Positions 8,654 through 26,783 of a stretch of DNA of 64,000 bases are shown here, in pieces. This DNA is from Rhodospirillaceae bacterium bin65 (GTDB lineage Bacteria; Pseudomonadota; Alphaproteobacteria; Bin65). Position 1 is the stretch's first letter. Every line of letters begins with the position of its first letter. The notes under the pieces are model-generated. The model worked only from the letters and a program-made list of their open reading frames with translations. It was not told the origin of the DNA and searched no databases. The translations under genes and the position numbers were made by a program. Location: assembly GCA_002238725.1 (NCBI GenBank), contig MPMX01000002.1:1-64000 (forward strand). Reading direction: 5' to 3'.

Positions 8654-8947
8654 TCAGGCGGCCTTGGCGGCGCGCAGTTCCTCGATCCGGACGACCAGGT
8701 TTTTCATGACGAAGAATTCGTCGGCGTCCGCGTCGCCCTGGTTGACCTCCTCCATCCATTGCTCGACCGGCATCTTGATGCCGAACTTCTTGTCGATGTC
8801 GAAGGTTACGTCCAGGAAATCCAGGCTGTCGATGCCGAGGTCGTTCACGGCATGGGAATCCGGGCCGATGTCCGCCCGGTCGATCGAGCAGATGTCAGCG
8901 ATGATATCGGCGACCGAATCGAAGGTTTCCTGGTTGAATGCGGTCAT
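8654..8947 (-). CDS. acpXL: Acyl carrier protein AcpXL
   Basis: This 97-residue ACP carries very-long-chain hydroxy fatty acids for lipid A. The phosphopantetheine serine is in [12 protein letters not shown], at about residue 40. The C-terminal half ([14 protein letters not shown], then EEFFV-like text and [10 protein letters not shown]) is the longer tail that separates AcpXL from housekeeping AcpP (about 78 residues). I chose ATG 8947 because GGAG precedes it at good distance; an in-frame ATG at 8965 is possible. It heads the fatty acid operon. The 194 bp upstream to lpxXL contain TTGACT on this strand near 9033 but no convincing -10 box. Confidence 0.93.
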
Positions 8948-9141
8948 CGAGGTCTCCGCTCGCAATGCGGTATTCCGGGTGGCGCCCGAAGGTCAGTGGA
9001 CGATTGATCGGTCGGAAAAGAAAATAAAGTCAACCGGTTAGCGCGCGGGCAGGTCAGGGGTTCGCAGACGGCCAGAACATAGTCGCGCTGCCTGCCCGGC
9101 GGCATCGTGTGTTTTGTCGCGCCGGTGCCCGGCCTGCCGGT

Positions 9142-10122
9142 TCAGGAACCCCAGCGCCGGTGGAGCCAGAGCCATTGCTCCGGCGACTGGCGCACCCAAT
9201 CGGCGATCCTGTCGTTGACCCGCTGCATGAAGCGGGCTTCGTCGGCCCGGCTGTCGCCGGTCCGTTCGATCTGCATCGGATCGGTGATTTCGATGGCAAA
9301 GCGCCGCCCGCCCAGCCGTCGGCAGCAGGCGCCGAACACCGGCGCGTCGAAGCGCAGGGCAAAGCGCGCGAGGGTAACCCCGGTCATGGCCGGCCGGCCC
9401 ATGAAATCCAGCGCCATGCCCCTGTTGTTCTTCTGGTCGACCAGTAATGCCAACCGGCCGCCCTGGGCCATGACACGGCCGGCAGCGAGGCCGCCCTGAT
9501 ACCCTTTGGGCAACAGGGCGAACTGGCCGGCGCGCATCCGGTCGAGCAGCGGGCCGACATAGGGATTGTTCGGACGACGGAAGACGACGGAGGTGAAAAC
9601 GCCGAATTTCGCCGCGCCGACGGCCAGGAATTCCCAATTGCCCATGTGCGGCACGAAGATCAGTGCCGGCCCGCGGTGGGTCAGCAGGCGAAGGAAATTC
9701 TGGGCGCCCCGGATCTCGAGGCGCCCGCCGCGCAGGGTGACGGATTCGCCGGTCCGCGCCGCCGCCATGAGGCGCTCGATGCCGGTCTCCGACAGCGCCT
9801 CCTGCAACGCGGGATCCCACAGTGCGTCGATGCGCGCCGATTCGGCGGCCACCCGGCCCAGATTGTCCCACATCCGGCGCACGATCTGCCGCCGCCGCGC
9901 CCGCGTCATGTCCGGGAAGATTCGTTTCAGATTTGCCTTGGCGCGGCGGGAAAAAGGCAGCAACGGGCCAATCGTTCGTCCGATAATCCCGCCGATAGCG
10001 GAAGCGGCTGCCGAGGGGACGAGGCGCATCGCCCCCCAGAAAAGATAGACCGGCACAGCCTCCAGCGCCCAAATGAGCGGCAGGAACCGCACCGCCCGCG
10101 CAGCAGCCCTCCGACGCCCCAT
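9142..10122 (-). CDS. lpxXL: Lipid A acyltransferase, LpxXL/HtrB family
   Basis: This 326-residue membrane-associated acyltransferase of the LpxL/LpxM (HtrB/MsbB) family has an N-terminal hydrophobic segment (about residues 13-35). Its HX4E catalytic motif is intact: H159-MGNW-E164. Such enzymes transfer an acyl chain from ACP onto the lipid A precursor at the inner face of the inner membrane. Its position just upstream of acpXL suggests that it moves the very long chain from AcpXL. In rhizobia lpxXL ends the operon; here it precedes it, and the adh2XL gene found between them elsewhere is absent. Confidence 0.87.
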   Translation of the reverse strand: MGRRRAAARAVRFLPLIWALEAVPVYLFWGAMRLVPSAAASAIGGIIGRTIGPLLPFSRRAKANLKRIFPDMTRARRRQIVRRMWDNLGRVAAESARIDALWDPALQEALSETGIERLMAAARTGESVTLRGGRLEIRGAQNFLRLLTHRGPALIFVPHMGNWEFLAVGAAKFGVFTSVVFRRPNNPYVGPLLDRMRAGQFALLPKGYQGGLAAGRVMAQGGRLALLVDQKNNRGMALDFMGRPAMTGVTLARFALRFDAPVFGACCRRLGGRRFAIEITDPMQIERTGDSRADEARFMQRVNDRIADWVRQSPEQWLWLHRRWGS

Positions 10123-10172
10123 ACCTCAGCGCCCCCGCCTGTCTGTCAGATGCAGCGAATGACCGGCGAAGA

Positions 10173-10248
10173 TGGTGCCCAGGGGCGGAATCGAACCACC
10201 GACACCGTGATTTTCAGTCACGTGCTCTACCAACTGAGCTACCTGGGC
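10173..10248 (-). tRNA. tRNA-Phe (GAA)
   Basis: The reverse strand from 10248 folds as a standard 76-nt tRNA. The acceptor GCCCAGG pairs with CCTGGGC, the D-arm reads AGCTCAGTTGGTAGAGC, the anticodon loop CTGAAAA contains GAA, and the T-loop is GGTTCGATTCC. CCA is encoded at 10175-10173. It lies downstream of the yacG-maf block and antisense-free. Confidence 0.98.
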
Positions 10249-10347
10249 TCCGCATCCGGGCGCCGATCGCCAAAGGACGGGCCCGCAACCGCTCGCGAAG
10301 AACGCGATGTATAGGTTTGTCGGCCCGGCAAGTCCACCCGCTGCGCC

Positions 10348-10605
10348 TCAATGCGCCAGCACGCCGCGTCGCCCCTTGCCGCCCCCCTCGCCCGATTCGT
10401 CACCCAACTCACCGGCGGGTTCGCGGGCGGGTTCGTCGGCGGGATCTTCGTCCTCGTTCCGCTCGGAGGGATCGGCCGGGATGCGGTAATCCTCGTTGAA
10501 CCACCGCCCGAGGTCGACGTCGGCGCAGCGGCGCGAGCAGAAGGGCCGGTACTCAGATACGGCCGGCTTGCCGCAGACCGGGCATCGCTCCGGCGGGCCC
10601 GTCAT
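10348..10605 (-). CDS. yacG: DNA gyrase inhibitor YacG
   Basis: This 85-residue zinc-binding protein has the YacG signature CPVCGKP (Cys pair at about residues 8-11), then [17 protein letters not shown] with the second Cys pair, and NEDYRIP. In E. coli YacG binds GyrB and inhibits gyrase. The C-terminal tail from about residue 48 is acidic and low-complexity (Glu, Asp, Gly), longer than in E. coli. It follows maf by 34 bp in the same leftward block, the common alphaproteobacterial order infA-maf-yacG. Confidence 0.93.
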
Positions 10606-10639
10606 CGCGCCGGCCCGTCCGGCATTTCACCAAACCGGA

Positions 10640-11230
10640 TCATCCCGTGCCCTCGAGAAGGGCCCAGGTTTCGAACAGCGGGAGGCCGACGATATTCGAA
10701 TAGGAGCCGGAAATCCGCCGCACGAAAATGGCAGCCCTGCCCTGAATGGCATAACCGCCGGCCTTGTCCTGCCATTCGCCGCTCTCGATATACCGGTCGA
10801 TTTCGTCGGCATGCAGCCGCTTAAACGTGACGGCGGACTGCACAACCCGTACCGCGATTCTCGCCGGGGGGCCGGCGTGGCCCGAGGGCGCCGAAGCGGG
10901 AATCGCCAGCGCAATCGCGCCGATTACGCGGTGCCGGCGGCCCGACAGGAGGCGCAGACAGCGGCGCGCCTCGGCCGCATCCCGTGGCTTGCCGAGAATG
11001 CGCCGGCCGGCGGCAACCGCGGTATCGGCGGCGAGCACCCGGTCTGCGCTGCAGCGACGGCTGACCTGGAGGCATTTTTCGTGCGCCATCCTTGCGGCAT
11101 AGGCCTTCGGCAATTCGGCGCGGCGCGGAGTCTCATCGATGTCGGCGGGAAGCACCCGGCCGGGCGCGAGGCCCACCTGGGCAAGAAGTTCGAGGCGGCG
11201 CGGCGAGGCGGAGGCAAGAACGAACGTCAC
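10640..11230 (-). CDS. maf: Maf family nucleotide pyrophosphatase
   Basis: This 196-residue Maf protein hydrolyses non-canonical or pyrimidine nucleoside triphosphates to monophosphates. The signature ASASPRR stands at residues 6-12, the catalytic Asp in AADTAVAAG at about 68, and the conserved KAGGYAIQG and GSYSNIVGLPL later on. The sequence fits the YhdE (dTTP/UTP) subgroup better than YceF. The start ATG at 11230 lies 54 bp after the infA stop, so the gene is probably co-transcribed with infA. Confidence 0.93.
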   Translation of the reverse strand: MTFVLASASPRRLELLAQVGLAPGRVLPADIDETPRRAELPKAYAARMAHEKCLQVSRRCSADRVLAADTAVAAGRRILGKPRDAAEARRCLRLLSGRRHRVIGAIALAIPASAPSGHAGPPARIAVRVVQSAVTFKRLHADEIDRYIESGEWQDKAGGYAIQGRAAIFVRRISGSYSNIVGLPLFETWALLEGTG

Positions 11231-11284
11231 GATCCACGAACGCTCAACAGATTGGTCCGGCCACGGGCGCCTGTTCGAGGCGCC

Positions 11285-11503
11285 CTACTTGAAGCGAAAC
11301 GTGATCCGCCCCTTGGTCAGGTCATAGGGCGTCATTTCCACGCTGACTTTGTCGCCCGTCAGAACCCGGATTCGGTTCTTGCGCATCTTGCCCGACGTGT
11401 GCGCCAGGATTTCATGGTCGTTCTCCAGCTTCACGCGAAACATTGCGTCCGGCAGGATTTCAGTGACCGTCCCCGAAAATTCCAGCAGATCCTCTTTCGC
11501 CAT
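11285..11503 (-). CDS. infA: Translation initiation factor IF-1
   Basis: This 72-residue S1/OB-fold protein occupies the ribosomal A site during initiation. It starts [13 protein letters not shown] and ends [14 protein letters not shown], with [14 protein letters not shown] in between, all strongly conserved. The ATG at 11503 gives the exact family length and is preceded by AAGGA. The frame stays open upstream to 11980 without conservation, so the longer reading is rejected. Confidence 0.98.
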
Positions 11504-11670
11504 CCGGCCGTTTTCCTTGGAATTGTCTACATGTTGCGGGCGAACATGGCCGGGCCGGAAGCCCGGGTCAAGCGGCTTGCCCGGACCTCTACCAAGGCAA
11601 ATACCCGAAAATTGGCAGGATTGGCGCCGGTTCGGCCGACCGGAAGCGCCGGCCCCGGCTGCGGACGGCG

Positions 11671-11913
11671 TTACTGGATGTGCGTCTGGACGCCGGCGAG
11701 CAGATAGCGGCGCGCCGGAACGCACGGCGCGCTCCGATCCACGACGATGGCGATGTTGAACGCCACGCCGCCATGTTCGGCGATCCACTTCTTGCCGGTG
11801 CGCTCGCGCGGATCGATGGCGTAGTCCATATGCGAAGTCGCTGCGACGACGGCGACGACGGCCAGGGCGGGGCACAGCCAGGCGAGGGGGCGGCGGATCG
11901 AATCCAGTTTCAT
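11671..11913 (-). CDS. Small single-pass membrane or exported protein, unknown
   Basis: I do not recognise this 80-residue frame. It has a basic N-terminus (MKLDSIRR), one hydrophobic segment at about residues 9-30 ([18 protein letters not shown]), and a soluble tail containing [19 protein letters not shown] and two Arg-rich stretches. The segment could be a signal anchor or a cleaved signal. ATG 11913 is chosen because the hydrophobic segment then sits properly; an in-frame start at 11958 would add 15 Pro/Arg-rich residues. It lies between the phosphatase and infA, downstream of an AT-rich patch with a strong palindrome. Confidence 0.5.
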
Positions 11914-11973
11914 GGCACCGTCCGGAAATCGGGGCGCAGGCCGGAATCCGACCCGCACGGCAGAGGAATTGTG

Positions 11974-11996
11974 TATTCAATTAGTCAAATTGAATA
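11974..11996. promoter_or_regulatory. Perfect 9-bp inverted repeat in AT-rich patch
   Basis: TATTCAATT and AATTGAATA are exact reverse complements separated by 5 bp. The element sits in an AT-rich island (about 11970-12070) about 60 bp upstream of the small membrane protein gene. Length and symmetry suit a dimeric repressor such as a MarR or TetR protein. No regulator gene adjoins it, and it is followed by no T-run to suggest a terminator. Confidence 0.45.
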
Positions 11997-12117
11997 AAGA
12001 TGTCGAGCACGTTTTGGGAATTTAGCAATATTTATGACAATCCGGTATAATCAATAGATATACTAAATGAAAATGCGGTGGACCGAAGCAGAGTACCGGC
12101 CCGGTGGGTCATCCGGG

Positions 12118-12555
12118 CTAGGGCTTCATCGCAGGCGCGAACCGGGAGCGGATGCGCTGGAAAATCCGGTCGCGAACCTGCCGGTAGGCGTCCAGCCGCT
12201 GTTCCCGGTTTCCTTCGACGATGCTCGGATCGAACGTGTTCCACAGTTCGACCTCGACCGAACTGGTCCGGGTCATTTCCAGAGCCCGGTGGTGCGCTTC
12301 CGGCGACAGGGTTATGACTATATCGAACAGGTCGTCCTCCAGGTCGTCGAACGTCTTGGCGGCATGGCGTGAAATATCGATGCCCATCTCCTCCATGACG
12401 GCAACCGCGAATCCGTCCACCTCCCGCGCCCGCATGCCAGCCGAATCGACATAAATCCGGGTGCCGTGCAGAAATTTCAGGAAGCCCTCGGCCATCGGCG
12501 AGCGAATGGCGTTCATCGTGCAGGCGAACAGGACGCTGCCGGGCAGCTCGCTCAT
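12118..12555 (-). CDS. Low molecular weight protein-tyrosine phosphatase family
   Basis: This 145-residue protein has the LMW-PTP/ArsC phosphate loop near its start: C12-TMNAI-R18-S (CX5R). The general-acid Asp is in NTFDPS. Members dephosphorylate tyrosine, or act on arsenate in the related ArsC branch. Its fixed place between UPF0262 and infA in alphaproteobacterial genomes suggests a housekeeping role and not arsenic resistance; no other ars genes are present. I chose ATG 12555 because family members start just before SELPGSVLFAC; ATG 12582 would add nine residues. Confidence 0.87.
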   Translation of the reverse strand: MSELPGSVLFACTMNAIRSPMAEGFLKFLHGTRIYVDSAGMRAREVDGFAVAVMEEMGIDISRHAAKTFDDLEDDLFDIVITLSPEAHHRALEMTRTSSVEVELWNTFDPSIVEGNREQRLDAYRQVRDRIFQRIRSRFAPAMKP

Positions 12556-18270: not shown

Positions 18271-19140
18271 ATGGCCTATTCGACCCTTACCTATGAACGC
18301 GACGGCCGGGTTGCCAGAATAACCTTCGACCGGCCGGCGCGGCTGAACGCCATCGCCGCCGCCACGCCGGACGATATCACCGCCGCAGTCGCCGAGGCCA
18401 ATGGCGACGACCGGGTCCACGTTATCGTCCTTTCAGGGCGCGGCGCGGCCTTCTGTTCGGGGTACGACCTGAAGGATTTCGCCGAAGGCTCCAGCGCGGG
18501 GATCCAGGAGCGCATGCCCTGGGACCCGATGAAGGACTATGCCCTGATGAAGGGCTACACCGAGAAGTTCATGAGCCTGTGGCGCTCCTACAAGCCGGTC
18601 ATCTGCAAGGTGCAGGGCTATGCCGTTGCCGGTGGCTCGGACATCGCGCTGTGCTGCGACCTGGTCGTGATGGCGGAGGATGCGCGGATCGGCTATCCGC
18701 CGGCCCGGGTCTGGGGCTGCCCGACCACCGCCATGTGGGTCTACCGGCTGGGCGCGGAGGGCGCCAAGCGCATGCTGCTGACCGGCGATCTCGTGACCGG
18801 GGCCGAGGCGAAGGCGATGGGCCTGGTGACCGACGCCGTGCCCGCCGAACGGCTCGATGACCGGGTCGAGGAACTGGCGCAGCGGCTGGCCGGCGTGCCG
18901 AAGAACCAGCTGATGATGCAGAAGCTGACGATCAACCAGGCCATGACCAACATGGGCCTGGAAACCACCCAGACGATCGCCACGATCTTCGACGGCATCA
19001 CCCGCCATTCGCCCGAAGGCATGGCCTTCAAGCACCGGGCCGAGGAGGTCGGCTTCAAGCAGGCTGTCAAGGAACGCGACAGCGGCGACTATCTCGACGA
19101 ACTCTGGCCGATCCGCACCGGCCCGGTGCAGTACGAATAG
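18271..19140 (+). CDS. Crotonase-fold protein, atypical active site
   Basis: This 289-residue enoyl-CoA hydratase/isomerase-family protein has the oxyanion-hole segments RGAAFCSGYDLKDF and GYAVAGGSDIALCCD. However, the two glutamates used by true hydratases are missing: GGSDIAL has Asp where the family has Glu, and the second block reads GYPPARVWGCPTT with no Glu. It may therefore be an isomerase, lyase or thioesterase-like member. ATG 18271 follows AGAAGGA. The frame extends upstream to 18145 without similarity. It lies before the repeat array and MarR gene, and could share their regulation. Confidence 0.83.
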   Translation: MAYSTLTYERDGRVARITFDRPARLNAIAAATPDDITAAVAEANGDDRVHVIVLSGRGAAFCSGYDLKDFAEGSSAGIQERMPWDPMKDYALMKGYTEKFMSLWRSYKPVICKVQGYAVAGGSDIALCCDLVVMAEDARIGYPPARVWGCPTTAMWVYRLGAEGAKRMLLTGDLVTGAEAKAMGLVTDAVPAERLDDRVEELAQRLAGVPKNQLMMQKLTINQAMTNMGLETTQTIATIFDGITRHSPEGMAFKHRAEEVGFKQAVKERDSGDYLDELWPIRTGPVQYE

Positions 19141-19175
19141 ACCGGGGCCGGCAGCCGGCCGGATCGGTCGGATCG

Positions 19176-19241
19176 TTTCAATTGGTCGGACATAAACTTT
19201 CAATCGGTCGGGAATTGACTTTCAATCGGTCGGACGCAAAC
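19176..19241. repeat. Three tandem 22-bp direct repeats
   Basis: Three head-to-tail units of exactly 22 bp begin at 19176, 19198 and 19220. The first 14 bp, TTTCAATYGGTCGG, are nearly invariant and the last 8 vary but end AAC or GAC. A further ATCGGTCGGA stands at 19163, out of phase. A 22-bp period is two helical turns, so bound proteins would line up on one face. The array lies between the crotonase stop and the MarR promoter, 139 bp before the promoter -35 box. Confidence 0.85.
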
Positions 19242-19379
19242 CGGGCGGAACCGGGGCGGAAATGGAGCACCGGGCGGGCGCCCGGCACTCGCCGGTGGCC
19301 ACGGGGAGGCCGCGCTTTCAGACGCGAACCGCCACAACATCGAAACCGTAGAAATCCCTACTTCGGGAGATATCAATAA

Positions 19380-19407
19380 TTGACTAGTCATTAAACTTTC
19401 ATATGAT
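19380..19407 (+). promoter_or_regulatory. MarR gene promoter with overlapping palindrome
   Basis: TTGACT at 19380-19385, a 16-bp spacer and TATGAT at 19402-19407 form a strong sigma70-type promoter. The perfect palindrome TGACTAGTCA (19381-19390) covers the -35 box. A MarR dimer bound there would block its own promoter, the usual design for autoregulation. Confidence 0.62.
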
Positions 19408-19432
19408 GCCCGCCTGATCTGGAGGGCGTGAA

Positions 19433-19939
19433 TTGACCGAGGCAGCATCCCGATCCGGCACCCGGCCGTCACCTGGCGGGAATTTGCGCGTGGACATGGA
19501 CAGCCACATCCCGGCGCTGTTCGTAACGCTCGGCGGCAAGATCGGGCTGCACGCTTTGCGTCACCATGCGCGCGCACGCGGGCTCGACCTGCGCGAGTGG
19601 CGCATCATTCAGGTTCTTGGCGGCGATGGCCGCTCGACGATCTTCGCGGTCGCGGACCGGATTGCCATGGACCGCGGCGGCACGAGCCGTTCGGTCGCCC
19701 GGCTGGAGAATCGCGGACTGGTGACGCGGCAGGACGATCCGTCTGACCGGCGCCGGTCCTATGTCGAACTCACGGACGAGGGCTGGGCGGTTCACGACGA
19801 AATCGCCCGTTTCGCGCTCGCCCGCGAAGAACGTCTCCTGAGGAATTTCTCGCCGGGCGACAGCGCGCGATTGCGGCGATACCTCAACGCGCTGGCCGCC
19901 GAAGCCGACGCGATGATCGCCGAAGGGTGGTCGCCGTGA
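19433..19939 (+). CDS. MarR family transcriptional regulator
   Basis: This 168-residue winged-helix regulator has the MarR core at about residues 25-160. The recognition helix region is FAVADRIAMDRGGTSRSVARL and the wing is DPSDRRRSYVELTDEG, each cited by its conserved core (DPSDRRRS). The TTG at 19433 follows GGAGGG by six bases and no ATG fits as well. The protein probably senses a small aromatic or related ligand and controls the Rieske/TRAP/sulfatase genes downstream, and possibly its own promoter. The upstream 22-bp repeats may bind it or another factor. Confidence 0.9.
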   Translation: MTEAASRSGTRPSPGGNLRVDMDSHIPALFVTLGGKIGLHALRHHARARGLDLREWRIIQVLGGDGRSTIFAVADRIAMDRGGTSRSVARLENRGLVTRQDDPSDRRRSYVELTDEGWAVHDEIARFALAREERLLRNFSPGDSARLRRYLNALAAEADAMIAEGWSP

Positions 19940-19949
19940 CCCGACCCAG

Positions 19950-19994
19950 TGATTCCCAATTTCATGATTCCCGGCTCCATGATTCCGGGCCGGC
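19950..19994. repeat. Three 15-bp direct repeats
   Basis: TGATTCC recurs at 19950, 19965 and 19980, exactly 15 bp apart; the first two units share TGATTCCC and the last two share flanking GGC. The stretch lies between the MarR stop and the Rieske oxygenase start. It might be a short slippage product or a regulatory element; nothing decides between them. Confidence 0.5.
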
Positions 19995-20037
19995 GGACAC
20001 GCCGGACCCCGTGCGGGGCGGAACGAGGGAGATACCG

Positions 20038-21096
20038 ATGTCCGATTTCGCCATGGAGCCCCTGGTCCACGACGTCTGGTATGTCGGCGCCTGGTCCCAC
20101 GAACTGGACGGCGGGCCGATCGCGCGCAGGATCATGGGCGAGGATGTCGTGCTGTTCCGCAGCGGCGACGGCACGGCGGCCGCCCTGGAGGACCGCTGTT
20201 GCCATCGCGGCGTGAAGCTGTCGCTGGGCGCCCCGGTCGAGCAGGGCCTGCAATGCGGCTATCACGGCCTGGTCTTCGACGGCAGCGGCGCCTGCGTCGT
20301 CAATCCGGGCGAGAAACCCAGCCCGGCCTTCTGCGTCCGCGCGTTTCCGGTCGTCGAGCGCCAGCACTTCGTCTGGATCTGGATGGGCGATCTCACGCAG
20401 GCCGACCCCGGCCTGATCGTCGACTTCGCCTGGCACGACAGGACGGACGAGTGGAATTTCCAATACGCGCGCTACGACATCGCCGCCAACTTCATGTTCA
20501 TGATGGACAACCTGATGGATCTGACCCACCTGGGCTATGTCCACACGTCGACCATCGGCGGCAACCCCGGCGAACACGACGCCGCCGAGCTGACCACGAC
20601 GCGCACCGAGCGCGGCGCCCGCTATGTCCGGTGGATGATGGAATCGACCCCGCCGCCGTCCTTCGTCAAGGTCGCCGGCTTCAAGGGCAAGGTCGACCGC
20701 TGGCAGGACTTCGAGTATGTCGCACCGGCATCGGTCCTACAGTGGGGCGGCGGCCACGACGCCGGCACCGGCGGGCGCAAAAACCGCGAGAAACCCGGCG
20801 GCATGGCCGTCAGGCTGTTTCACCATGCGACCCCGGCCGACGAGGAAAACTTCCACTATTTCTTTTCCACCGCCGTCCGCGGCCAGGCGCTCGATGCGCC
20901 GGCCAACACCGCCTTCCACGAAGACATCTTGGAAGCGTTTCTCGAAGACAAGATATTCATCGAGGCGCAACAGGAAGCGGTCGGCAAGGACCCGGCTCGC
21001 AAACTCCTGTTGCGCGGCCACGACAAGGCCGTGGCCTACTGCCGCCGGGCGATCAGGAAAATGCGGGAAACCGGGTTTGCCGCCGCAGCGGAATGA
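20038..21096 (+). CDS. Rieske non-heme iron oxygenase, VanA-like
   Basis: This 352-residue oxygenase component has a Rieske [2Fe-2S] site at C54-x-H56 (CCHRG) and C73-x2-H76 (CGYHG). A mononuclear-iron site follows in the catalytic domain, MDNLMDLTHLGYVH, with H164 and H169. Length and layout fit the single-polypeptide VanA/aromatic O-demethylase group more than two-subunit dioxygenases. It would use NADH-derived electrons from a reductase, but none is encoded nearby. ATG 20038 follows GAGGGA. With the TAXI-TRAP transporter and sulfatase it suggests oxidation or demethylation of an imported, perhaps sulfated, aromatic acid. The substrate is inferred only. Confidence 0.9.
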   Translation: MSDFAMEPLVHDVWYVGAWSHELDGGPIARRIMGEDVVLFRSGDGTAAALEDRCCHRGVKLSLGAPVEQGLQCGYHGLVFDGSGACVVNPGEKPSPAFCVRAFPVVERQHFVWIWMGDLTQADPGLIVDFAWHDRTDEWNFQYARYDIAANFMFMMDNLMDLTHLGYVHTSTIGGNPGEHDAAELTTTRTERGARYVRWMMESTPPPSFVKVAGFKGKVDRWQDFEYVAPASVLQWGGGHDAGTGGRKNREKPGGMAVRLFHHATPADEENFHYFFSTAVRGQALDAPANTAFHEDILEAFLEDKIFIEAQQEAVGKDPARKLLLRGHDKAVAYCRRAIRKMRETGFAAAAE

Positions 21097-21207
21097 CCGC
21101 GCCCGCCTCCGGCGGATGCGGCGGAGATTGCCCGGTAGCGGCAGCCGCCCCGGTGCGATAAGAATGCGCCGGGTTCGCCGATTCGAACCGAAATCTGGGA
21201 GGAAACC

Positions 21208-22164
21208 ATGAAAGTCATTGCCCTGGCCGCCGCGGGCGCGGCAGCCCTCGCCTTCGCCGCCACTGCGCCGGCGTACGCACAGACCTACAGCATCGGCACC
21301 AATCCGCAGGGCTCGTCGGCCTATGCGACCGGCGCCGCCGTCGCCAAGGTCGCCAAGGACGTGGTCGGGCTGCGCGCCCGCGTCGTGCCCCAAGGCGGCC
21401 CGGTCGTCACCCTGCCGCTGGTCAACTCCGGCCGGCTGAAATTCTCGATCGCGGTCAGCGTCGTCACCGCCTTCGCCAACCAGGGCAAGGCGATGTTCAA
21501 GGGCAAGCCGCAAAAAGATGTCCGCGTGGTCGCCGTGGTGCGCACGCTGCGCCTGGGCATCTTCGCGGCGAAGGACTCAAAGATCGCTTCGGTCGCCGAT
21601 CTCAAGGGCAAGAAGATTTCCTCTGGATTCGCCAAGCAGCGCATCCAGGGCCTGTTCTGGCGCGCCCTGCTCAACATGGCGGACCTGACCTTCAAGGATG
21701 TCAAGGGCGTCCCGGCGCCGAACGGCGTGCGCGGTGTCGACGATTTCATGGGCGGCAAGGTCGATGCCGGCATGTTCTCCATCACCTCCGGCAAGATGCG
21801 CCAGGCCTACGCCTCGCGCGGTTATAAATATGTTTCGCTGCCGGACGATCCGGCGTCGGTGAAGAAGATGCAGGCGATCGCGCCGGGCTCGGTGGTCGAA
21901 AAAATAGGCCCGTCGCCGGCCTACGCCGGCGTGACCGGCCCGACCAACATCATGGCCGCGCCCTTCATCGTCACGGCGAACGTTACGGTGCCAGATGACC
22001 TCGTCTACAAGCTGGTCAAGGCCATGGCCGCCAACAAGAAGATGATGGTCGCCGCCTTCAAGGGCATGGCCGGCTTCAATCCGAAGAAGATGTATGTCGA
22101 TATCGGCGTGCCCTATCATCCCGGCGCGATGAAATACTACCGCGAGACCGGCCAGGCGAAGTAA
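21208..22164 (+). CDS. TAXI family TRAP transporter substrate-binding protein
   Basis: This 318-residue periplasmic receptor has a clear signal peptide: MKVIALAAAGAAALAF up to cleavage after PAYA at about residue 24. The mature start TYSIGTNPQGSSAY matches the TAXI group, distinct from DctP receptors. Other family text includes VPQGGPVVTLPLVNSGRL, ADLKGKKISSGF and MGGKVDAGMF. It would bind an organic anion and hand it to the fused permease encoded 24 bp downstream. A GGGAGG ribosome site precedes the ATG. Confidence 0.93.
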   Translation: MKVIALAAAGAAALAFAATAPAYAQTYSIGTNPQGSSAYATGAAVAKVAKDVVGLRARVVPQGGPVVTLPLVNSGRLKFSIAVSVVTAFANQGKAMFKGKPQKDVRVVAVVRTLRLGIFAAKDSKIASVADLKGKKISSGFAKQRIQGLFWRALLNMADLTFKDVKGVPAPNGVRGVDDFMGGKVDAGMFSITSGKMRQAYASRGYKYVSLPDDPASVKKMQAIAPGSVVEKIGPSPAYAGVTGPTNIMAAPFIVTANVTVPDDLVYKLVKAMAANKKMMVAAFKGMAGFNPKKMYVDIGVPYHPGAMKYYRETGQAK

Positions 22165-22188
22165 GCCCGGCCTCTTCGGAGCGCGGCT

Positions 22189-24171
22189 GTGACGGACGCC
22201 GTTCCCGAAGCGGAGTCCTACGCCACCGAGGTTGAAGCGGAGGCCGCCGCCCCCACGGGCGACATCCTGGTCAGGTGGGTGGGTGGCGGCCTGTGCGCCC
22301 TGCTGACCGCCGGCGCCCTGCTCTGGGCGGCGGACCTCTACCGCGCCGTCGATCTCGTTTTCATGAACGAGCAGTTCTACGCCGCCATGCTCGCGATCGG
22401 GCTGGCGGCGCTCTATCTCACCGTGCCGGCTCGCAAGGGGGAGCCGCGCACCCACGTACCCTGGTACGACCTGATTATCGCCGCGATTTCCGCCGCCGCG
22501 GCGCTCTATGTGACGGTCGAATACCCGACCATCCTGGACAATTTCGCCGACAACCCGCCGGACGCCGTGGCAGCGGCGGCGATCCTGCTGGCCGCCATCG
22601 TGGAAGGCCTGCGGCGGACCGCCGGCCCCATCCTGTTCGCCTTCCTGCTGTTTTTCCTGATTTTCGCCCTGGTCGGCCATCTGATTCCGGGCCGGCTGCA
22701 AGGCGAGAATGTGCCGGTCGATCGGCTGGCGATTTATGTCGTGCTCGACGCCAACGGCATGTTCGGCTTCCCGATGAAGGTGTCGACCACCATCGTGCTG
22801 GCCTTCATGTTCTTCGGCTTTCTGCTTGAGCCGGCGGGCGGCGCACGCTTCTTCACCGATATCTCCGCCGGACTGATGGGCCGGTTCCGCGGCGGCTCGT
22901 CCAAGATCGCCATCGTCGGATCCAGCTTGTTCGGCTCGATCTCCGGCAGCGCGGTCTCCAATGTCGTCTCGACCGGCGTCATCACGATACCGCTGATGAA
23001 GCGCGGCGGCTATCCGACCCACTCGGCCGCGGCGATCGAGGCGGTGGCCTCGACCGGCGGGCAGCTCATGCCGCCGATGATGGGCGTCGCCGCCTTCGTC
23101 ATGGCCGAGCTGTTGCAGATCGGCTACGCCGAGGTCGTGCTCGCAGCGCTGATCCCGGCAATCCTCTATTACGCCGCGCTGTTCATCCAGGTCGATCTGC
23201 AGGCGGCGCGAGACGGCATCCTGCGGATCGATAAATCGCTGATCCCGCGGCTGCTGCCGGTGGCGGGCCGCGGCGGCATCTTCCTGACGCCCTTCGTCGT
23301 CATCGTGCTATGCCTGTTCCGCTGGTCGCTCCAGCCGGAGACAGCGGCGCTCTACGCTGCGCTTACGCTGCTGCCCATCGGCTTCCTGCTCGGCTATGGC
23401 GGAGACCGGCTGACCATCCGCTCGCTGGTCGCCAGCTTCGTCAAGACCGGCAAGGCCGGGCTGGAACTGCTGATGATCGGCGGCGCAGCCGGCGCGATTA
23501 TCGGTGTGCTGAACATTTCGGCCCTCGGCTTCGCGCTGACCAGCGAACTGGTCGGCATCGCCGGCGGCAGCCTGTTTATCCTGCTCATCCTGGCAGCGAT
23601 CGTGTGCATCCTGCTCGGCATGGGCATGCCGACGCTCGGCGTCTACATCCTGCTCGCCACGCTGGTCGCGCCGGCGATCATCGAACTCGGTGTGCCGGAT
23701 CTCTCGGCCCACCTGTTCGTGATGTATTTCGGCATGATGTCAATGATCACGCCGCCGGTCGCCATCGCCGCCTTCGCCGCCGCGACGCTTGCCGGCGCGC
23801 CGATGATGAAGACCGGCTGGCAGGCCGTGAAATACGGCTGGTCGGCCTATCTGATCCCGTTCGTCTTCATCATGTCGCCGGCGCTCATCATGCAGGGCGG
23901 CGCGCTCGAGGTGGCGCTGAGCTTCACGACCGCCCTGTTCGGCGTGTTCCTGGTCTCGGTCGCAGTGACCGGATTCCTGTTCACGACGATCCTCCCGCCG
24001 CTCCGCGCCGTCTACGCCATAGCCGGCCTTGCGCTGATCGTGCCGATCGCCGCCTTCGCCGAGGCGCCGTGGCTCAACCTGGTCGGTGGCGCCGTCGGCG
24101 CGGCGCTGATCGCCGCCGATGTCGTCAGGCGCCGGGCGCGCGCGGCCCTTCCCGCCACTGCCGGAGAATAG
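22189..24171 (+). CDS. TRAP transporter permease, fused small and large subunits
   Basis: This 660-residue membrane protein joins the 4-helix DctQ-like and 12-helix DctM-like parts, as is usual for TAXI systems. Many hydrophobic segments run through the length. The DctM-type block GSSLFGSISGSAVSNV and the later GMGMPTLGVYILLATLVAPA are recognisable. It imports its substrate with sodium or protons. The start is GTG at 22189. The gene ends one base before the sulfatase ATG, so receptor, permease and sulfatase are one operon. Confidence 0.95.
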   Translation: MTDAVPEAESYATEVEAEAAAPTGDILVRWVGGGLCALLTAGALLWAADLYRAVDLVFMNEQFYAAMLAIGLAALYLTVPARKGEPRTHVPWYDLIIAAISAAAALYVTVEYPTILDNFADNPPDAVAAAAILLAAIVEGLRRTAGPILFAFLLFFLIFALVGHLIPGRLQGENVPVDRLAIYVVLDANGMFGFPMKVSTTIVLAFMFFGFLLEPAGGARFFTDISAGLMGRFRGGSSKIAIVGSSLFGSISGSAVSNVVSTGVITIPLMKRGGYPTHSAAAIEAVASTGGQLMPPMMGVAAFVMAELLQIGYAEVVLAALIPAILYYAALFIQVDLQAARDGILRIDKSLIPRLLPVAGRGGIFLTPFVVIVLCLFRWSLQPETAALYAALTLLPIGFLLGYGGDRLTIRSLVASFVKTGKAGLELLMIGGAAGAIIGVLNISALGFALTSELVGIAGGSLFILLILAAIVCILLGMGMPTLGVYILLATLVAPAIIELGVPDLSAHLFVMYFGMMSMITPPVAIAAFAAATLAGAPMMKTGWQAVKYGWSAYLIPFVFIMSPALIMQGGALEVALSFTTALFGVFLVSVAVTGFLFTTILPPLRAVYAIAGLALIVPIAAFAEAPWLNLVGGAVGAALIAADVVRRRARAALPATAGE

Positions 24172-24172
24172 A

Positions 24173-25786
24173 ATGGCCGCCTCCCGTTCCGCCTCGAAAC
24201 GCCCGAACTTCCTGATGATCGTCACCGACCAGCAGCGGGCGGACTATCTGGGCTGCGCCGGCCACCCGATTCTGAAAACGCCGCATATCGACGGCATCGC
24301 CGCGCGGGGCATCCGGTTCGACCGCTTCTATGTCGCCAACCCGGTGTGCATGCCCAACCGGGCGACCCTGGTGACCGGCCGGATGCCGTCGCTGCACGGC
24401 GTCCGGCACAACGGCATCCCGCTGTCGCTGTCGGAGAACACATTCGTCGATCTTATGCGGCACGAAGGCTACCGCACCGGCCTGATCGGCAAGAGCCATC
24501 TCCAGAACATGACGGACAACCTGCCCGAGATGGAGCGCCGGTCCGAGCCGCGTGACGACGCCTTCGCCGAGGCGCGCAAGCCGGAACCTGTCGCCGGCGA
24601 CGCCTATGAAGAGGAGCGGCCCTGGACGTGGAAGGAGGATCCGGACCACCAGATCGCCACGCCCTTCTACGGCTTCGAGGATGTGGCGCTCGCCACGATG
24701 CACAGCGACAAGGTGGGCGCCGCCTATATCGCCTGGATGAAGGCGCGGGGCGGCGATCCGGACACCATGGTCGGCCCGGAAAACAGCCTGCCCCACGACT
24801 ATGTCGCGCCCCAGGGCTGGCGCACGGCCGTGCCGGAAGACCTGTATCCCACCAGCTATGTCGCCGAGGAATCGATGGACTGGCTGGAGGCCTATGCCGG
24901 GGAAGGCGGCGACCGGCCGTTCTTCCTCACGGCCTCGTTCCCCGACCCGCACCATCCCTTCACGCCGCCGGGCAGATACTGGGACATGTACGACCCGGCG
25001 GATTTCGACCTACCGGAGAGCTTCCACCGGCTGGGCAACCAGGCGCCGCCGACCCTGCAATGGATGTGGGAAAACCGCCCGCCGGGCGATGGCAGCCGCA
25101 ATGTCGGCCAGGTCGCCTATACCGTGACCGAGCGGGAAGCGCGCGAATCGATGGCGCTGACCTGCGGCATGATTACGATGATCGACGATGCCGTCGGCCG
25201 GATCCTCGCCAGGCTCGAAGCGCTCGGCCTCGCCGACAACACCGTCGTCGTCTTCACCGCCGATCACGGCGATTTCCTGGGCGACCACCGGGTCATGCTG
25301 AAGGGCCCGATGCATTACGGGGGGTTGGTGAAGGTGCCGTTCCTCTGGGCCGAGCCGGACGGCGTCAATGGCGGCGCGACCTGCTCCGCCCTCGCCGGCA
25401 CCGTCGATATCGCGCGCACGATGCTGAGCCGCGCCGGCATCGCCCCGTATAACGGCATCCAGGGCCGCAGCCTGGCGCCGGAAATCGCTACCCTGGAGGA
25501 CCACGGCAGCGGCGCCGCGCTGATCGAGGACGACCAGCAGCGCACGATCATGGGTTTCGAAAGCGACTTCCGCGTACACTCGTTGATCACGCGGCGCTGG
25601 CGGCTGTCGGTTTACAGCGGCGCCGGCCATTGCGAGCTGTACGACCTGGAAAACGACCCCCACGAACTGACCGACCTGTACAACGACCCGGCCTATGCAA
25701 CGGTCAAGGCGGAAATGCTGGAGCGCCTGGCCAAGGCCGAGATCGAAACCGTTGACCGCAGCCCCTTCCCGACCGCGATTGCCTGA
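24173..25786 (+). CDS. Sulfatase-family hydrolase
   Basis: This 537-residue alkaline-phosphatase-superfamily enzyme has metal ligands in TDQQRADY (D19) and TADHGDFLGDHR. Its formylglycine motif is intact: C59-MPN-R63 (CxPxR), so Cys59 should be converted to formylglycine by a maturase encoded elsewhere. No signal peptide is seen, so it acts in the cytoplasm after uptake. It may hydrolyse sulfate esters, or phosphonate monoesters as some relatives do. Tight coupling to the TRAP permease implies that the imported compound, or a product of it, is the substrate. Confidence 0.92.
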   Translation: MAASRSASKRPNFLMIVTDQQRADYLGCAGHPILKTPHIDGIAARGIRFDRFYVANPVCMPNRATLVTGRMPSLHGVRHNGIPLSLSENTFVDLMRHEGYRTGLIGKSHLQNMTDNLPEMERRSEPRDDAFAEARKPEPVAGDAYEEERPWTWKEDPDHQIATPFYGFEDVALATMHSDKVGAAYIAWMKARGGDPDTMVGPENSLPHDYVAPQGWRTAVPEDLYPTSYVAEESMDWLEAYAGEGGDRPFFLTASFPDPHHPFTPPGRYWDMYDPADFDLPESFHRLGNQAPPTLQWMWENRPPGDGSRNVGQVAYTVTEREARESMALTCGMITMIDDAVGRILARLEALGLADNTVVVFTADHGDFLGDHRVMLKGPMHYGGLVKVPFLWAEPDGVNGGATCSALAGTVDIARTMLSRAGIAPYNGIQGRSLAPEIATLEDHGSGAALIEDDQQRTIMGFESDFRVHSLITRRWRLSVYSGAGHCELYDLENDPHELTDLYNDPAYATVKAEMLERLAKAEIETVDRSPFPTAIA

Positions 25787-25802
25787 GCGTGCACTGCGCG
25801 CG

Positions 25803-26783
25803 TCAGGCGTTGACGTCGATCACCGTGCGGCCGCGGACGCCGCCTTTCAGGATGGTCTCGCCGGCGGCGAAGGCTCCGTCGAGGGGGATGACCCCGGTCA
25901 TCGCCTCCAGCTTCCCGATCGGCAGATCGCTGGCGAGGCGCTGCCACGCCGTCTTGCGCGGGGCGGCCGGATACATCACCGAATCGATGCCGAGCAGGCT
26001 GACGCCGCGCAGGATGAAAGGCAGGACGGTGGTGGCGAGATCGTTGCCGCCGGCATTGCCGCAGACCGCGACAGCGCTGTGCACGCCCATCTGCGCGGCG
26101 GCGGTCGCCAAGGTCGGGCCGCCCACGGCATCGACACAGCCCGCCCATTGCGCCTTTTCGAGCGGCCGGCCGGTCGCTTCCAGCCGGCCGATCACGTTCG
26201 CTGCGCCGAGGCCGCGCAGATACTCCTCCTCGTCGCTCTTGCCGGTCGAAGCCGTGACCTCATGGCCCAGCGCCGCCAGAATCGCGACGGCGACGCTGCC
26301 GACCCCGCCGGATGCGCCGGTCACCAGCACCGGGCCGGCGCCGGGCCGCAGCCCGGCATGCTCCAGCGCCATCGCCGAGATCATGGCCGTGAAGCCCGCC
26401 GTGCCGATCGCCATGGCTTGGAAATTGGTCAGCCCGTCCGGCACCTTGACCAACCAGCCGGACTTGACCCGCGCCTTCTGGGCGAAGCCGCCCCAGTGCC
26501 GCTCCCCGAGGCCCCAACCGGTCAGGACGACCCGGTCTCCCGCCGCAAAATCCGGCGACGCGGACTCCTCGACCGTGCCGGAAAAGTCGATGCCCGGCAC
26601 ATGGGGATAGGTGCGCACCAGCCGCGCCAGCCCTTTCAGGATCAGGCCATCCTTGTAGTTCAGGTCGGAATAGTCGATGCGGACGGTGACGTCGCCGTCG
26701 GGCAGCCGGCCGTCATCAAGGTCAGTCACGGCGCCGGCGACATTGCCGTCGTTTTCTTCGAGCAGGATGGCGCGGAAGGTCAT
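25803..26783 (-). CDS. acuI: MDR-family oxidoreductase, AcuI/YhdH type
   Basis: This 326-residue zinc-independent medium-chain reductase resembles AcuI, which reduces acryloyl-CoA to propionyl-CoA with NADPH. Supporting text is YSDLNYKDGL at about 39, HVPGIDFSGTV, and the Rossmann motif VTGASGGVGSVAV. Length fits. It converges on the sulfatase gene with only 16 bp between stops, so it is not part of that operon. A general quinone or enone reductase is the alternative. Confidence 0.85.
   Translation of the reverse strand: MTFRAILLEENDGNVAGAVTDLDDGRLPDGDVTVRIDYSDLNYKDGLILKGLARLVRTYPHVPGIDFSGTVEESASPDFAAGDRVVLTGWGLGERHWGGFAQKARVKSGWLVKVPDGLTNFQAMAIGTAGFTAMISAMALEHAGLRPGAGPVLVTGASGGVGSVAVAILAALGHEVTASTGKSDEEEYLRGLGAANVIGRLEATGRPLEKAQWAGCVDAVGGPTLATAAAQMGVHSAVAVCGNAGGNDLATTVLPFILRGVSLLGIDSVMYPAAPRKTAWQRLASDLPIGKLEAMTGVIPLDGAFAAGETILKGGVRGRTVIDVNA

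Follow-up and report, generated by a model that had tools for sequence, protein, structure and literature searches.

A TAXI-TRAP transporter and sulfatase cassette with a MarR-family regulator as a probable import and desulfation route for sulfated organic anions in an alphaproteobacterial genus

A cassette of five genes in the genome of Rhodospirillaceae bacterium bin65 probably imports a sulfated organic anion and cleaves its sulfate in the cytoplasm, under the control of a MarR-family regulator. Its core consists of a TAXI-family receptor, a fused TRAP permease, and a sulfatase, while a VanA-like Rieske oxygenase lies outside this core. The parts are known and their combination is new. It appears that the periplasmic receptor would bind an organic anion, probably a sulfated one, and pass it to the fused permease for import, after which the coupled sulfatase would hydrolyse the sulfate ester to sulfate and a hydroxylated organic product. 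The released products may serve growth or sulfur supply. The oxygenase may modify either the imported compound or a different one that falls under MarR control, and would be fed by a reductase encoded elsewhere.

The bacterium is known solely from metagenomes, and its genome is a 4.29 Mb draft of 94 contigs that is 96.3% complete. The cassette occupies positions 19433-25786 of the window (the whole stretch of 64,000 nucleotides that was analysed), with all genes on the forward strand, and a candidate operator precedes it:

19379..19392, no strand assigned, operator-like inverted repeat ATTGA-N4-TCAnT upstream of marR
19433..19939, + strand, MarR-family regulator (Pfam MarR_2, 50.9 bits)
20038..21096, + strand, from ATG, VanA-like Rieske non-heme iron oxygenase (Rieske 65.6 bits, VanA_C 126.6 bits)
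21208..22164, + strand, TAXI-family periplasmic receptor with signal peptide (TIGR02122, 155.2 bits against a cut-off of 84.35)
22189..24171, + strand, TRAP fused permease of the DctQM type (TIGR02123, 555.9 bits against 320.65)
24173..25786, + strand, S1-type sulfatase whose CxPxR motif reads CMPNR (PF00884, 148 bits against 25)

Each of the five proteins exceeds the curated cut-off of at least one Pfam or NCBIfam model, and the open reading frames agree with the gene content, order, and coordinates given in a preliminary description of this DNA. The spacing is 98 bases between marR and the ATG of the oxygenase gene, 111 bases between the oxygenase and TAXI genes, 24 bases between TAXI and the permease, and 1 base between the permease and the sulfatase. 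The last of these, to which the same description had drawn attention, is borne out by the permease stop codon at 24169-24171 and the sulfatase ATG at 24173. The adjacent receptor and fused permease, both above cut-off, constitute a TAXI-TRAP transporter, and eight further TAXI receptors are encoded in the host genome. Three tandem 22-base repeats starting TTTCAATnGGTCGG were also seen at 19176-19241 of the window, between the enoyl-CoA hydratase gene and marR.

The bacterial family is represented by 11 genomes in the collection, seven of which form the genus (G000-G006). The preliminary description had proposed looking for the gene set in other genomes, and the five genes, from marR to the sulfatase gene, stand in the same order in six of the seven genus members. 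The DNA around, and sometimes between, the cassette genes varies among these six genomes; in relatives, an AAA/DUF4143 ATPase or an Eco57I-type methylase is encoded upstream of marR, a nucleotidyltransferase-HEPN pair separates the oxygenase and TAXI genes, and a Fic protein is encoded 3′ of the sulfatase. Coding dN/dS ratios (Nei-Gojobori, against G003, G005, and G006) fall between 0.05 and 0.23 for all five genes, with 0.05-0.14 for the permease and 0.13-0.16 for the oxygenase. Because the order of the five genes is kept amid variable DNA and at such ratios, the gene set is real rather than a product of chance, and is maintained by selection.

What constitutes the core of the cassette is seen from two further genomes. 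G004, a congener, and G007, from another genus (Biocath_Alpha_02, locus L124), carry TAXI, TRAP, and sulfatase genes at the same chromosomal site without a Rieske gene, and the encoded proteins are 65-86% identical to those of the cassette. In both, a gene for a metallo-beta-lactamase-fold hydrolase precedes TAXI in place of the oxygenase gene; in the G007 version, a diverged MarR gene is reversed and a GntR-UbiD pair lies between TAXI and TRAP. On the simplest account, marR and the oxygenase gene came to join, or to replace, the hydrolase gene ahead of an older TAXI-TRAP-sulfatase unit. A 62% homologue of the G004 hydrolase was observed elsewhere (L117, contig C21 of G000, 9938-12535), where a separate MarR and an NMT1-type receptor are encoded next to it.

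The site itself, bounded by the genes for enoyl-CoA hydratase and AcuI (window 18274-26783; L039-L043, L083, L084), holds changing cargo around the constant core, including Fic-DUF4172, AAA-DUF4143, Eco57I-type methylase, NTase-HEPN, and metallo-beta-lactamase-fold genes, and looks like an insertion hot spot. The two flanking genes were considered as possible parts of the cassette. Their position is constant in all versions, yet variable cargo intervenes between them and the cassette in relatives, and they are thus taken as neighbours rather than parts.

The marR gene, present at the site in six of the seven genus genomes, starts with TTG; relatives have TTG, ATG, or CTG there, after a conserved GGAGG-like site. 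Its product has the winged helix of the MarR family, with a putative palindromic site near the promoter, and matches no NCBIfam equivalog above cut-off. All six aligned upstream regions contain the ATTGA-N4-TCAnT repeat with minor changes, and the DNA farther upstream is unrelated. This repeat is the best candidate for an operator, and MarR is probably a local repressor that would act there. A promoter-like match at 19380-19407 overlapping the repeat is no evidence by itself (1 found, 1.1 expected), and the scans for sigma-70 promoters and terminators gave nothing above chance. A perfect palindrome, TGACTAGTCA, upstream of marR was set aside as a feature of the window only, the conserved form being ATTGA-N4-TCAnT.

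With regard to the ligand, the glutamate TAXI-TRAP system VcGluP/VcGluQM (VC0430/VC0429) shares both the receptor and the permease families with the cassette. The key glutamate determinants of VcGluP are Y45 and Q93, and the contacts that have been mutated are Y45, S75, Q93, and E125 (PMC11574862). When the cassette receptor is aligned with VcGluP (8s4j), however, all four of the tested glutamate-contacting positions prove to be altered (Y45 to Ala, S75 to Pro, Q93 to Val, and E125 to Leu), and His123 is replaced by Arg. Since the glutamate contacts, including both key determinants, have been replaced, glutamate is unlikely to be the ligand of this receptor. An RTLR stretch is retained in the window clade, followed by a single RTLRV/RTLRL variation, and an anionic ligand would fit well with a basic residue close to the pocket. 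The TAXI ligands that we found described in the open-licence literature are glutamate and its close relatives.

The sulfatase has the features of the AS/PMH subgroup of S1 sulfatases, namely the Pfam domain, the C/S-x-P-x-R motif, and the active-site residues of SmCS and SpAS1, a set of Asp, Gln, Asn, Lys, His, His, Asp, His, and Lys (PMC5870055). C59, N62, and R63 of the CMPNR motif are invariant in the aligned relatives, as are D19, Q20, C59, N80, K107, H109, H260, D364, H365, and K377 in alignments of 16 and of 30 sequences. Inspection of the N-terminus revealed no evident signal peptide, and a cytoplasmic location is therefore probable. Its best PDB sequence matches are the dimeric arylsulfatases SpAS1 and SpAS2 of Silicibacter pomeroyi (4UPI and 4UPL; E 1.5e-52 and 1.6e-53), which have the identical active-site set, although identity is only 25-30% and C-G-S-S-R of SpAS2 is aligned with C-M-P-N-R of the cassette enzyme. 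The choline-sulfatase SmCS of Sinorhizobium meliloti is likewise an S1 enzyme that acts on a small organic sulfate ester with the same catalytic residues (PMC5870055). However, the cassette protein scores 190.3 bits with the choline-sulfatase model TIGR03417, below the cut-off of 433.45, and choline-use genes were not seen near the cassette. The AS/PMH group as a whole is promiscuous.

The cysteine of the motif is the predicted formylglycine site, and the question of its maturation extends to the whole genus. Neither a canonical formylglycine-generating enzyme (FGE) nor an anSME match was found in the genus drafts (G000-G006). The sole PF03781 protein in those genus members that have one is without the FGE cysteine pair (loci L118 and L206-L210), PF03781 had no match in G004, and the canonical FGE motif appears only in G013 and G014, both from other families. 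All seven related drafts, which are 95-97% complete, agree on the absence of a canonical FGE, although drafts can miss a gene. FGE is described in PMC12123546 as using a bis-thiolate copper site, and the PF03781 proteins without the cysteine pair are thus unlikely to be ordinary FGEs.

Related sulfatases are associated with transporters in other bacteria. Species genomes were scanned with a profile of sulfatase relatives, which yielded 79 loci, picked by sulfatase similarity and partly redundant. Receptor genes of the TAXI, Tct/Bug, DctP, NMT1/SsuA, and SBP_bac_5 types were then sought by phmmer with seeds from the loci. A solute-receptor gene lies within 2.5 kb of the sulfatase in 40 of the 55 loci with sufficient flank, compared with 7 of 43 at 5-7.5 kb. 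Expressed per 100 kb near and far from the sulfatase, receptor genes number 11.2 vs 3.5 and LysR genes 6.0 vs 0.9, while ABC ATPases are not enriched (2.6 vs 2.4). Oxidation of an alcohol by short-chain dehydrogenases was considered and rejected; 17 such genes lie near and 1 far, but they are mostly non-adjacent or on the opposite strand.

As the locus counts include relatives, a sulfatase tree was built, on which four changes are required to account for TAXI-TRAP coupling, and supported branches force at least three of them. Judged from this tree, coupling of TAXI-TRAP transporters to the sulfatase family arose at least three times. A separate sulfatase clade has a LysR-TAXI-TRAP-sulfatase arrangement in roseobacters, Granulosicoccaceae, Kiloniellaceae, and others, in which the TAXI proteins are about 20% and the TRAP proteins 31-33% identical to their window counterparts, and several roseobacter-type loci show a 4-base overlap between the TRAP gene and the sulfatase gene. 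Other sulfatase relatives adjoin Tct/Bug receptors. The open-licence papers searched did not describe any TAXI-TRAP-sulfatase or Tct-sulfatase set. That different transporters were recruited independently, and that one kind of sulfatase closely adjoins each of them, is the strongest evidence that the transported compound would be the substrate of the sulfatase. The import of an organic anion through TAXI-TRAP and its desulfation inside the cell, as put forward in the preliminary description, thus gains support from the repeated independent coupling, the sulfatase-type residues, and the lack of an evident signal peptide.

The place of the oxygenase is less secure. It contains Rieske and VanA_C domains above the Pfam cut-offs, its best solved relative is the dicamba O-demethylase DdmC (3gb4, E 1.2e-42), and its CxH/CxxH and NxxDxxHxxxxH motifs align with those of DdmC, which identifies it as a VanA-type Rieske oxygenase. 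Like DdmC and other enzymes of this type, it combines Rieske with VanA_C and would be a terminal oxygenase requiring a separate electron-transfer partner. However, it is distant from DdmC (phmmer, 149.7 bits), and close orthologues were found in this genus alone: no match was found outside the genus at E <= 1e-108 among 385 genomes of the class, and the relatives found in a plasmid search were all below 60% identity. No equivalog model for vanillate/aryl O-demethylase was matched above cut-off. No VanB reductase gene adjoins the oxygenase gene in the cassette, such adjacency being usual but not universal. This agrees with the earlier remark that the set encodes no ferredoxin reductase; for the shared reductase postulated at the same time, candidates are present, as four reductase matches with NAD-binding domains lie on other contigs of the host genome, the candidates being on C17, C40, C66, and C70, and a Fer2 domain is found in both of the two that were scanned. 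Two near-identical reductase fragments with NAD-binding and C-terminal Fer2 domains were observed on contigs C66 and C70 of G000 (L120 and L121), and C70 also carries a UbiD gene.

In G001 (L043, contig C116, ~9000-11850), an insertion of ~2.8 kb splits the oxygenase gene; it encodes an IS1595-type transposase together with a cytosine methyltransferase and a GIY-YIG protein, and the TAXI gene beside it is tandemly duplicated. In G002 (L042, contig C25, near 10367), the oxygenase gene has a frameshift near codon 292, possibly introduced by the assembly. In G003 and G005, other genes separate it from TAXI. The oxygenase is best explained as a later, lineage-specific, and sometimes broken addition to the cassette. 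A sulfatase paralogue in the same genome as the window was also observed directly after a ring-hydroxylating dioxygenase alpha and beta pair (L052, contig C32 of G000, 8708-12276).

Three other accounts of the cassette were weighed against import and desulfation as such. The most elaborate, which the preliminary description had suggested, holds that a sulfated methoxy-aromatic enters the cell intact and loses its sulfate there, and that the Rieske enzyme then O-demethylates or hydroxylates it within the same regulated pathway. This account appears unlikely, even though the five-gene order is constant in six genomes, purifying selection acts on the oxygenase in G003, G005, and G006, the enzyme resembles the O-demethylase DdmC, the paralogue at L052 follows a dioxygenase pair, and a UbiD-type decarboxylase gene is found within the G007 version. 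The oxygenase is missing from the G004 and G007 cassettes, is broken in G001 and G002 while the other genes stay open, and is parted from TAXI by unrelated genes in G003 and G005, all of which speaks against oxidation of the desulfated product by this enzyme. Moreover, aromatic-catabolism genes (UbiD, LigB, and Rieske) are equally frequent near and far from the sulfatase across the loci (1.5 vs 1.3 per 100 kb), which leaves a methoxy-aromatic substrate and its subsequent oxidation unsupported apart from gene linkage within this one genus.

Sulfur scavenging rather than carbon use, in which sulfate would be the benefit and the organic part would be wasted or exported, is quite unlikely. Sulfate is presumably plentiful in the sea, where many of the hosts appear to live, and MarR regulators often sense organic compounds, but the genes 3′ of the sulfatase differ from locus to locus in the LysR-controlled versions, and no dedicated downstream catabolic gene is common to all TAXI-TRAP-sulfatase loci, both of which are in keeping with scavenging. 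It is improbable, too, that the enzyme hydrolyses phosphonate monoesters, as phosphonate monoester hydrolases (PMHs) do, or phosphodiesters, and that the cassette imports a phosphonate or phosphate ester. The AlphaFold model of the protein (mean pLDDT 86) has AS/PMH enzymes as its nearest folds, with Z scores of 39.9 for BcPMH, 38.7 for ArPMH, and 36.8 for the SpAS enzymes, values so alike that the fold comparison does not separate AS from PMH. The enzyme shares the metal ligands D19, D364, and H365 and the Q20-K377 pair with PMHs, and the TAXI protein has a weak, below-cut-off match to a phosphonate-binding Pfam model. On the other hand, BcPMH has Tyr105/Thr107 at the position of the sulfatase Lys/His pair (PMC4014121), where the cassette enzyme has Lys107/His109; SpAS1 and SpAS2 are the best matches both by sequence and in Foldseek; and the PehA model, whose cut-off is 900, gives 189.4 bits. 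We prefer the account in which a sulfated organic anion is imported and then desulfated in the cytoplasm.

The repeated pairing of importers with sulfatases in unrelated bacteria suggests a real, uncharacterised nutrient route. It may also be, although we put this forward tentatively, that receptor-dependent secondary transporters, TAXI-TRAP and related ones, became dedicated sulfate-ester importers on several independent occasions for a widespread, uncharacterised clade of cytoplasmic sulfatases, and that the sulfatases of this genus are matured without FGE or anSME. If this is true, sulfated organic anions would be a new ligand class for TAXI receptors; a receptor that is devoid of the glutamate contacts and belongs to a gene set repeatedly linked with a sulfatase, in both alpha- and gammaproteobacteria, provides a testable guess at such a different class. 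The LysR-TAXI-TRAP-sulfatase arrangement also occurs in the isolates Loktanella sp. 5RATIMAR09 and Pacificoceanicola onchidii, and it can thus be tested by ordinary genetics. A sulfatase-rich genus in which no canonical maturation enzyme was found points to a gap in the knowledge of formylglycine formation, and the cassette may bear on how bacteria use dissolved organic sulfate esters.
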